From positions 496,001-560,000 of the forward strand of contig NZ_CP058910.1 in the NCBI RefSeq assembly GCF_013415885.1: a stretch of 64,000 bases of DNA. The letters are read 5' to 3'. This DNA comes from Halosimplex rubrum (lineage in GTDB: Archaea; Halobacteriota; Halobacteria; Halobacteriales; Haloarculaceae). The first letter of the stretch is position 1. The number at the start of each line of letters is the position of its first letter. A program made the translations under genes and the position numbers. Below, piece by piece: positions 56,987 through 59,812 of the stretch. The notes beneath the pieces are model-generated. The model saw nothing but the letters and a program-made list of their open reading frames with translations. It ran no database searches and was not told the origin of the DNA.

Positions 56987-57544
56987 ATGGACACCCAGGG
57001 ACTCATCGACGCGCTCCGGGCGGCCGACGCCGTGAAGTTCGGCGAGTTCGAGCTCTCCCACGGCGGTACCTCGAACTACTACGTCGACAAGTACCTCTTC
57101 GAGACCGACCCCGACTGCCTCGAAGCGATCGGCGAGGCGTTCGCCGACCACCTCGCGGCGACGACCGACGGCGAGACCAAACTCGCCGGCGTCGCGCTGG
57201 GCGCCGTCCCGCTGGTCGCGGTCACGAGCGTCGAGTCGGCCAGTCCCTACGTCATCGTCCGCAAGCAGCAGAAAGAGTACGGCACCGCCAACCTCGTCGA
57301 GGGCGAGCTCGCCGACGGCGAGGAGGTCGTGGTGCTGGAGGACATCGCGACGACCGGCCAGAGCGCCGTCGACGCCGCCGAGGCGCTCCGGGAGGCCGGC
57401 GCCGTCGTGAATCGGGTACTCGTCGTCGTCGACCGCGAGGAGGGCGCCGCCGAGAACCTCGCCGAGCACGACCTCGAACTGGAGTCGCTCGTGACCGCGT
57501 CGAACCTGCTCGACGACGCCCCCGAGGACGTCGACGCGGCCTGA
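56987..57544 (+). CDS. pyrE: orotate phosphoribosyltransferase
   Basis: PyrE joins orotate and PRPP to form OMP in pyrimidine synthesis. The 185-residue protein has [59 protein letters not shown] and the PRPP loop [28 protein letters not shown] at 56987 is preceded directly by GGAGGT, too close to act as a Shine-Dalgarno, so a leaderless mRNA from about 56955-56965 is more likely. It uses the product of prs, which is also in the window. Confidence 0.95.
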
Positions 57545-57669
57545 CGCCGACGAGTCGATCCGCAGCCTGTCGGTTGCCGCGAAATTCGCCGGCCGGCCGA
57601 CGGCGGTGTCCGGCCGCGACGCGCCTGGTAATGACTCGCACGGTCAGAACAGGTCGGCGCACGTCACAA

Positions 57670-57687
57670 CGCTTTTATCCGAAAGCG
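57670..57687 (+). promoter_or_regulatory. thrS promoter with inverted repeat
   Basis: CGCTTT-TATCCG-AAAGCG has perfect 6-bp arms, and the CTTTTATC within it serves as a TATA box. The expected transcription start, about 25-30 nt downstream, is near 57700, just before the ATG of a 13-codon ORF and a long stem-loop. The mRNA leader to thrS is therefore about 120 nt, unusual for haloarchaea. Confidence 0.55.
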
Positions 57688-57704
57688 CGTTAGCGGAGAG
57701 CAAG

Positions 57705-57746
57705 ATGGCAGGTGACTGCTTTACACGCGGGCCTCCCGCCCCATAA
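57705..57746 (+). CDS. 13-codon upstream ORF in the thrS leader
   Basis: ATG at 57705 lies at or within a few nt of the predicted transcription start and encodes MAGDCFTRGPPAP followed by TAA. The entire ORF lies inside a large stem-loop, with the start codon in the 5' strand of the stem and the stop inside the loop. It ends 74 nt before the thrS start. It could be a leader peptide that senses translation of this message. Confidence 0.5.
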   Translation: MAGDCFTRGPPAP

Positions 57747-57760
57747 CCAGTCACTGCCAT
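57705..57760 (+). promoter_or_regulatory. stem-loop in the thrS 5' leader
   Basis: ATGGCA-(g)-GTGACTG at 57705-57718 pairs with CAGTCAC-TGCCAT at 57748-57760: 13 base pairs with one bulged G. The loop contains a second stem GCGGG-cct-CCCGC (57727-57739). The outer stem sequesters the upstream ORF start codon. The structure is in the transcribed leader upstream of thrS, so it is a candidate cis-regulatory RNA. Confidence 0.7.
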
Positions 57761-57820
57761 GTTCTCGCGCTCGACGCTCGCTGCCCGACAGCGGTGCGTG
57801 GCGCGGTGGAGGCAGATGAC

Positions 57821-59812
57821 ATGTCACAGCAGGAATCCTCAGTCACGGTGGAACTGCCCGATGGAAGCACGCTCGACGTTCCGTCGGGCGCCACAGTCGA
57901 AGACGTGGCCTACGAGATCGGTCCGGGGCTCGGAAGCGACACCGTCGCCGGCAAGCTCGACGGCGAGCTCGTCGCCAAGGAGGCGCCGGTCTACGACGAC
58001 GCACGCGTGGAGATCGTCACCCCCTCGGCCGACGAGTACCTGCAGGTGATGCGCCACTCCGCCGCACACGTCCTCGCGCAGGCGATCCTCCGGGAGTACC
58101 CCGACGCCAAACTGGCCACCGGTCCGCCCACCGAGGAGGGGTTCTACTACGACTTCGACGGCATCGACGTCGACGAGGGCGACTTCGACGAGCTGGTCGC
58201 CGAGATGGAGGCCATCGTCGACGAGGACCTCGACATCGAGCGCGAGGAGGTCTCGCTCGACGAGGCCCGCGAGCGCGTCGCCGGCGACCCCTACAAGGAG
58301 GAGATCCTCGAGGATCTGGCCGCGGGCGACCGCGGCGCCGACGACGACATCGAGACCGTCTCCTTCTACAGCCAGGGCGACTTCTCGGACCTCTGTGCCG
58401 GGCCGCACGTCGCCTCCACCGGCGAGATCGGCGCTATCGACCTGCGAGAGATCGCCGCCACCAACTGGCGCGGCGACGAGGACCAGCCGCGACTCACCCG
58501 CGTCTACGGCACCGCCTTCGGCTCGGAGTCCGACCTGGAGGACTACTGGGAACGCAAGGAGGAGGCCGAGCGCCGGGACCACCGCCGCATCGGCCGCGAG
58601 ATGAACCTCTTCTCCATCCCGGAGCACTCCCCGGGCTGCGTCCACTTCCACCCCGACGGGATGGCGATCCGCCGGGAGCTGGAGGACTACATCCGCGGGA
58701 AGAACGACGATCTCGGCTACGAAGAGGTGTGGACGCCCGAACTCAACAAGGTCGACCTCTGGAAGACCTCGGGCCACTACGAGCACTTCTGCGAGGAGGA
58801 CGAGATGTTCCACTGGGACCAGGCCAGCGCCCGCACCGAGGGCGACGAGGCCGACGAGTACGGCCTCAAGCCCATGAACTGCGCCAACCACGTCCACCTC
58901 TACCAGCGCGAACGCCGCTCCTATCGCGAGCTCCCGAAACGCTACTGCGAGTTCGGCACCTGCTACCGCAACGAGCGCTCCGGCGAACTCTCCGGGATGC
59001 TCCGGGTGCGAGGGTTCACCCAGGACGACGGCCACGCGTTCGTGACTCGCGACCAGATCCAGGGCGAGGTCACCCGCACGCTCGAGGTCATCGACGAGGT
59101 GCTGGCCGACTTCGGCCTCGACGTGACGTTCAAGCTGGAGACCCAGCCCGACGACTCCTTCGGCGACGACCAGCTGTGGGAGCGCGCCGAGAGCGACCTG
59201 CGGAGTTCGCTCGACGCCCTGGGCGAGGGCTACGCGGTCGAGGCCGGCGAGGGCGCCTTCTACGGCCCGAAGATCGCCGCCGACGCCGAGGACGCCATCG
59301 GCCGCGAGTGGACCGTCGGCACCGTCCAGTTGGACTTCGTCCAGCCCGACCGGTTCGACCTCGTCTACGTCGGCGAGGACAACGAGGAACACACGCCGGT
59401 GATGATCCACCGCGCGCTGCTGGGGACGTTCGAGCGGTTCATGGCTGTCATGATCGAGCACTTCGCGGGCCGGTTCCCGCTGTGGCTCGCGCCCGAGCAG
59501 GTGCGCGTGCTCCCGCTGAACGAGGAGGTGCTGGGCTACGCCCACCGCCTGCGCAACGACTTCGAGGAGAGCGGCTTCCGCGCGACCGTCGCCGACGGCG
59601 ACGACACGCTCCAGCGCAAGATCCGCGCCGCCCACGACGAGAACGTCCCCTACATGTGCATCGTCGGCCCCGACGAGGAGGAGGCGGGCACCGTCTCGGT
59701 GCGCGACCGCGCCGAGCGCGAGGCCCGTGACGTGGACCCCGAGACCTTCCGCGAGCACCTCCGCGCGGAGCGCGAGGAGAAGCGGCTCGAACCGGACTTC
59801 CTCGACGACTAG
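57821..59812 (+). CDS. thrS: threonyl-tRNA synthetase
   Basis: This 663-residue class II synthetase charges tRNA-Thr. Domains in order: TGS (SVTVELPDGSTLDVPSGATVEDV), the N2 editing domain with HSAAHVLAQA and GPHVAS (bacterial-type, as in haloarchaea), the catalytic core with LKPMNCANHVHLY, RYCEFGTCYRNE, SGMLRVRGFTQDDGHAF and VMIHRALLGTFERFMA, and the C-terminal anticodon domain (RVLPLNEEVLGYA). ATG at 57821 is preceded by GGAGG 8 nt upstream, so translation is Shine-Dalgarno-led rather than leaderless. Confidence 0.96.
   Translation: MSQQESSVTVELPDGSTLDVPSGATVEDVAYEIGPGLGSDTVAGKLDGELVAKEAPVYDDARVEIVTPSADEYLQVMRHSAAHVLAQAILREYPDAKLATGPPTEEGFYYDFDGIDVDEGDFDELVAEMEAIVDEDLDIEREEVSLDEARERVAGDPYKEEILEDLAAGDRGADDDIETVSFYSQGDFSDLCAGPHVASTGEIGAIDLREIAATNWRGDEDQPRLTRVYGTAFGSESDLEDYWERKEEAERRDHRRIGREMNLFSIPEHSPGCVHFHPDGMAIRRELEDYIRGKNDDLGYEEVWTPELNKVDLWKTSGHYEHFCEEDEMFHWDQASARTEGDEADEYGLKPMNCANHVHLYQRERRSYRELPKRYCEFGTCYRNERSGELSGMLRVRGFTQDDGHAFVTRDQIQGEVTRTLEVIDEVLADFGLDVTFKLETQPDDSFGDDQLWERAESDLRSSLDALGEGYAVEAGEGAFYGPKIAADAEDAIGREWTVGTVQLDFVQPDRFDLVYVGEDNEEHTPVMIHRALLGTFERFMAVMIEHFAGRFPLWLAPEQVRVLPLNEEVLGYAHRLRNDFEESGFRATVADGDDTLQRKIRAAHDENVPYMCIVGPDEEEAGTVSVRDRAEREARDVDPETFREHLRAEREEKRLEPDFLDD

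Follow-up and report, generated by a model that had tools for sequence, protein, structure and literature searches.

A conserved leader open reading frame upstream of thrS in Halobacteria and its proposed role in ribosome-mediated control

Leader-peptide attenuation is a textbook bacterial mechanism, with the E. coli trpL and pheST leaders as familiar examples. In these ribosome-mediated attenuators, a short leader ORF with cognate codon(s) lies before the cognate gene and overlaps a hairpin, and the haloarchaeal thrS leader described here resembles them in each of these respects. It differs from them in its archaeal host, its apparently leaderless upstream ORF (uORF), its single rare Thr codon, and the lack of a conserved U-run terminator. 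The E. coli thrS translational operator likewise controls thrS through leader RNA hairpins. In contrast to that operator, the haloarchaeal leaders have no anticodon-mimic loop and carry instead a conserved uORF whose translation is inferred. T-box riboswitches also act through leader RNA, controlling aminoacyl-tRNA synthetase genes by tRNA charging, a response that is only inferred for the haloarchaeal leaders. Here the T-box specifier loop is replaced by a conserved short ORF with a cognate codon.

Babski et al. 2016 (PMC4983044, Table 2) listed H. volcanii ORFs of 15-31 aa, including uORFs of 26 aa before pheS and 23 aa before a tryptophan-tRNA ligase; thrS is not in that table. Those uORFs lie in long 5'-UTRs of mapped transcripts and were treated as small proteins or uORFs without an attenuation reading, and the terms "attenuat" and "leader peptide" are absent from the paper. 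They concern the same two synthetase types, pheS and trpS, as leaders reported below, and may be the same peptides. No report of an archaeal leader-peptide attenuator was found in the literature searched; most subscription journals were outside its coverage, and priority is not established. A preliminary description of this locus, made from sequence alone, knew of no described archaeal thrS leader of this type, and nothing contrary appeared in that literature.

Layout and conservation of the thrS leader ORF

The DNA analyzed (the window) is a 64,000-nt stretch of the Halosimplex rubrum genome. The thrS leader region in it contains the following features.
57671..57679, + strand: TATA box GCTTTTATC, promoter of the uORF-thrS transcript (conserved in alignment; matrix score)
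57705..57746, + strand: 13-codon leader ORF, peptide MAGDCFTRGPPAP, apparently leaderless (ATG 57705-57707, stop TAA 57744-57746)
57705..57718, + strand: 5' arm of stem P1, ATGGCAGGTGACTG, overlapping the uORF start (sequence, fold, swap test)
57723..57725, + strand: Thr codon ACA, codon 7, putative sensor (Thr in every leader; ACA rare)
57728..57740, + strand: inner hairpin GCGGG-CCT-CCCGC within the uORF (MFE fold; varies among clades, absent in Halovenus)
57748..57760, + strand: 3' arm of stem P1, CAGTCACTGCCAT, directly after the uORF stop (compensated across clades)
57761..57774, + strand: pyrimidine-rich segment GTTCTCGCGCTCGA 3' of P1 (alignment; per-leader duplexes)
57808..57812, + strand: Shine-Dalgarno (SD) GGAGG of thrS (sequence)
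57821..59812, + strand: thrS, threonyl-tRNA synthetase (ThrRS), 663 aa, ATG at 57821 (homology)

Read directly, the uORF (57705-57746) has the sequence ATGGCAGGTGACTGCTTTACACGCGGGCCTCCCGCCCCATAA. The preliminary description had placed a 13-codon ORF inside a stem-loop before thrS, and the ORF, its stop, and the stem were all confirmed by this reading. TTCTC-type segments resembling GTTCTCGCGCTCGA also lie 3' of P1 in several clades. A tRNA search of the whole window detected no tRNA genes.

ThrRS relatives were gathered from named genomes and from the family, and their upstream regions were compared. The same motif recurs 5' of thrS in Halosimplex, Haladaptatus, Halovenus, Haloferax, and others. 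A loose pattern was run on 391 Halobacteria genomes, matches were retrieved, and thrS was located by tblastn. Retrieved matches with an in-frame ATG and a ThrRS match lay 63-390 nt 5' of thrS on the same strand, and those away from thrS had no ATG, except at loci L117 and L118. The strict uORF pattern matched 121 of the 391 genomes, in 36 genera, with one match per genome. Not every one of the 121 was retrieved; the retrieved strict matches all lay just 5' of thrS except one chance match (genome G026, locus L117). The reversed pattern, used as a control, gave about five scattered matches. Additional families retrieved later conformed to the rule that matches with an ATG lie 5' of thrS. Many Halobacteria are without this uORF.

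All 106 unique leaders have an ATG and an in-frame stop, and the uORF spans 10-18 codons. The stop codon is TAA in 86 leaders, TGA in 18, and TAG in 2; its position and type vary, and it is always present. Indels within the uORF are multiples of three, and those 3' of the stop are of any length. The leader uORF is real and conserved among Halobacteria. According to the preliminary description, a stem or ORF unconserved among relatives would have refuted its reading; this was examined, and both are conserved.

An RNA-only element, riboswitch or T-box-like, could contain an ORF by chance. Its support comes from the stem, conserved with compensation, and from the rare codons TTT ACA, which suggest selection at the nucleotide level. 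This explanation is opposed by the contrast between indels in threes inside the ORF and any length after the stop, by a stop that varies yet is kept, and by the absence of any Rfam match with E below 1 in the leader region. Scanning 57000-58500 with cmscan gave no T-box match, even at E values up to 5; T-box riboswitches had been described earlier as bacterial. We consider an RNA-only element very unlikely.

The threonine codon and the promoter

The Thr codon is ACA in 106/106 unique leaders. TTTACA belonged to the search pattern for 104 of these, and constancy of Thr there is not independent evidence. Two leaders, L052 (MAGIQLTGLAV) and L059 (MAEVSVTGRAL), were obtained independently of the pattern by reading upstream regions without the motif, and both have Thr at codon 7. 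Six nanohaloarchaeal leaders were also found with no Thr requirement (MKGGRFT, MKGGYFT, MKGGCFT, MKGAHFT, MKRGHPT, and MKRGYPT), with Thr encoded by ACC or ACT. These were only the loci among the gathered ThrRS relatives, without a group-wide search. Across all leaders, including the divergent and nanohaloarchaeal ones, only Met and the Thr at codon 7 are common, with Thr at codon 8 in a few leaders carrying one extra residue. Codon 4 (V/D/G/I) and codon 5 (R/C/Y/H/Q/S) vary across the 106 leaders while Thr is invariant. Both codons are rare in these genomes, with ACA accounting for ~4% of all Thr codons and TTT for 6-7% of all Phe codons. The earlier suggestion that sensing need not rest on threonine codons alone is corrected by this comparison, in which the single Thr codon is the one codon besides ATG found in all leaders. 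The single Thr codon per leader counts against the attenuator reading; runs of such codons are found in many bacterial leaders.

A separate observation concerns five nanohaloarchaeal loci (L045, L057, L076, L078, and L079), which have a hairpin-like CYAG-nTTTAACn-CTRG just 5' of thrS, followed by a conserved TTCAAAACYTYYTCATAAAC-type stretch.

A uORF without a sensing role was also considered: thrS translation or reinitiation would run at a constant rate determined by the leaderless uORF and hairpin, or the ribosome would be arrested by the nascent peptide. The Phe codon TTT before ACA (104/106 leaders, TTT being part of the pattern) and Gly at codon 3 (105/106) could represent such a peptide or RNA motif. 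However, Thr is retained where Phe or Gly is lost (MAEVSVT, MAGIQLT, MKRGHPT), and the leader residues at other synthetase genes are the cognate ones, F and W. This alternative is unlikely.

The promoter in the Halosimplex rubrum window precedes the uORF, not thrS. For the genomes with these leaders, the median TATA-matrix score was 11.6 before the uORF ATG, whereas their thrS ATGs scored -7.4 and random positions -7.5. The matrix was derived from the same leaders, making these scores partly circular. In most genomes without the uORF, a TATA-like element lies ~28-31 nt before thrS. The TATA spacing implies a start ~0-5 nt from the uORF ATG, and therefore an essentially leaderless uORF; with a TATA box at the uORF and a background score at thrS, thrS itself is therefore leadered. 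This arrangement is likely, being inferred from TATA spacing with the transcript start unmapped. A palindrome around the TATA box (CGCTTT-TATCCG-AAAGCG), proposed in the preliminary description, was rejected as an element because it is not conserved; relatives keep the TATA box only.

Stem P1 and alternative pairing

The P1 arms ATGGCAGGTGACTG and CAGTCACTGCCAT form 13 bp with one bulged base and are paired in the MFE fold. The 13-bp stem described earlier was confirmed. The 146-nt leader folds at -64 kcal/mol, compared to -54.6 +/- 3.7 for shuffles (z = -2.5; 3/200 shuffles equal or better), and the arm-to-arm duplex strength was matched by ~1% of shuffled downstream segments. Folding the MAFFT alignment with RNAalifold yielded no useful structure, since the P1 3' arms of different clades do not line up, and per-leader duplexes and swap tests were used instead. 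Using one row per distinct 5' arm, with arms picked by best duplex, native P1 pairing averaged -16.05 kcal/mol versus -12.97 kcal/mol for mismatched pairing, and native was better than the mismatched mean for 24/24 distinct arms (permutation p 5e-5). The permutation tests leave some shared ancestry in. Codon 4, as GTC, GAC, or GGC (Val, Asp, or Gly), covaries with the facing base in the P1 3' arm, and the codons neighboring Thr change across the 106 leaders in ways that preserve the stem. P1 overlaps the uORF in all clades.

In Natrialbaceae, a second element, GCGGAC(A/G)CC, lies 33-99 nt before thrS and can pair with GGTGTCCGC. This distal element compensates codon-5 changes (TGC with GCAGAC, CGT with ACGGAC; permutation p 2e-4), although it mostly does not follow the TAC and CAC variants of codon 5. 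Support for the alternative distal pairing was limited to Natrialbaceae. Taken together, the comparison supports the uORF, its Thr codon, the stem, the promoter position, and the Natrialbaceae distal pairing.

Two further pairings were seen by eye. Between P1 and the distal element, Natrialbaceae leaders (e.g., L157, L170, and L195) contain a hairpin CCGCTCGCTG...CAGCnGAGCGG with GU and compensated pairs. The other would join the P1 3' arm to the SD region of Halosimplex (GTCACTGCC with GGCAG-A-TGAC); it was rejected as chance because neither L004 nor L005 keeps it.

The presence of a hairpin upstream of the same gene, with P1 maintained by compensation, would also be compatible with ThrRS autoregulation, in which, as for E. 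coli thrS, a leader hairpin mimicking tRNA-Thr is bound by the enzyme and thrS translation is blocked. However, a Thr-anticodon-like 7-nt loop on a stem of >=4 bp was found in 0/106 leaders. Autoregulation also leaves the in-frame ATG, the stop, and the Thr codon unexplained, as it does the Phe- and Trp-coding leaders of pheS and trpS. We regard this explanation as very unlikely.

Leaders of other synthetase genes and proposed control

Leaders of other synthetase genes were located gene by gene. Of 30 haloarchaeal pheS loci, 26 have an apparently leaderless uORF ending in a Phe cluster, typically GFGFFF followed by the stop, resembling the Phe-rich E. coli pheST leader. The pheS gene of the same genome, outside the window (L299, G000:C1:917120-918780), is preceded by MAPEPSTGRIARERPAVRSGFGFFSGA, an apparently leaderless uORF whose stop follows a Phe cluster. 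For trpS, WxW uORFs occur in 17/19 loci, and L290 adds one with a GTG start. The trpS gene of the same genome, also outside the window (L281, G000:C1:615565-616525), has the uORF MTRSALAWRWRSPAPRADGTASAVGRA, containing WRW and ending at a stop. Five valS loci (L346-L350) have short Val-containing uORFs (MSVGIAVVRV, MRVALSVVRG, MRVVAVVRE), some with an AVVR motif. The valS case is weaker, and membership of these leaders in the same class is only probable. No convincing cognate uORF was found for tyrS, ileS, or serS in the loci examined. The inferred leaderless nature of the thrS uORF and the comparable cognate-codon leaders of pheS, trpS, and some valS genes are additions to the preliminary description.

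Other features were observed in these regions. A strongly conserved box, AACCGyTAACTGACCG, lies ~35-45 nt 5' of the pheS ATG in leaders L203-L229 and may be a leader element or a second promoter. At other valS loci (L351, L352, and L354), the leader ends with VGAP.

Ribosome-mediated leader-peptide control is the best explanation for the thrS leader and is likely, with translation, stalling, the response to Thr-tRNA charging, and the direction of that response all inferred. Transcription would start no more than a few bases from the uORF ATG, leaving the nascent mRNA a bare 5' end on which a ribosome would load to translate the 10-18 codon uORF with its rare Thr codon ACA at codon 7. With charged Thr-tRNA, the ribosome would pass ACA and terminate at the stop, and P1 could form. 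With Thr-tRNA in short supply, it would stall with ACA in the A site, covering the 5' arm and holding P1 open. The open P1 is predicted to change thrS expression; an increase on starvation is suggested by bacterial precedent only. In Natrialbaceae, the 5' arm has an alternative potential partner in the distal element, closer to thrS, and the two structures would exclude each other. We hold the sensing step with high confidence, as an inference made without expression, start-site, or ribosome data for thrS.

The output may be either premature transcription termination or thrS translation, and we cannot decide between them. Between the uORF stop and thrS, no U-run terminator was enriched, the longest T run averaging 2.48 versus 2.38 in shuffles. 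The data give no support to an intrinsic U-run terminator as the means of transcription attenuation. With no conserved U-run, any termination would therefore have to be factor-dependent. An SD-like motif precedes thrS in only 28/106 leaders; the clear GGAGG noted earlier before thrS is present in the window. Attenuator-like control of thrS, as first proposed, is supported by the comparative evidence, while its U-run terminator version is not.

A bolder reading groups these leaders of haloarchaea and some Nanohaloarchaea into one class: leaderless leader peptides with cognate codons (Thr, Phe, Trp, Val), through which the ribosome would sense tRNA charging and synthetase genes would be regulated with no U-run terminator involved. 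This would be an archaeal form of ribosome-mediated attenuation with an output step unknown from bacteria, and we hold it to be modestly favored over its negation. If true, archaea couple leader translation to the expression of the downstream gene, and these leaders would make transcription-translation coupling, leaderless initiation, and amino-acid sensing directly accessible to genetics in haloarchaea.
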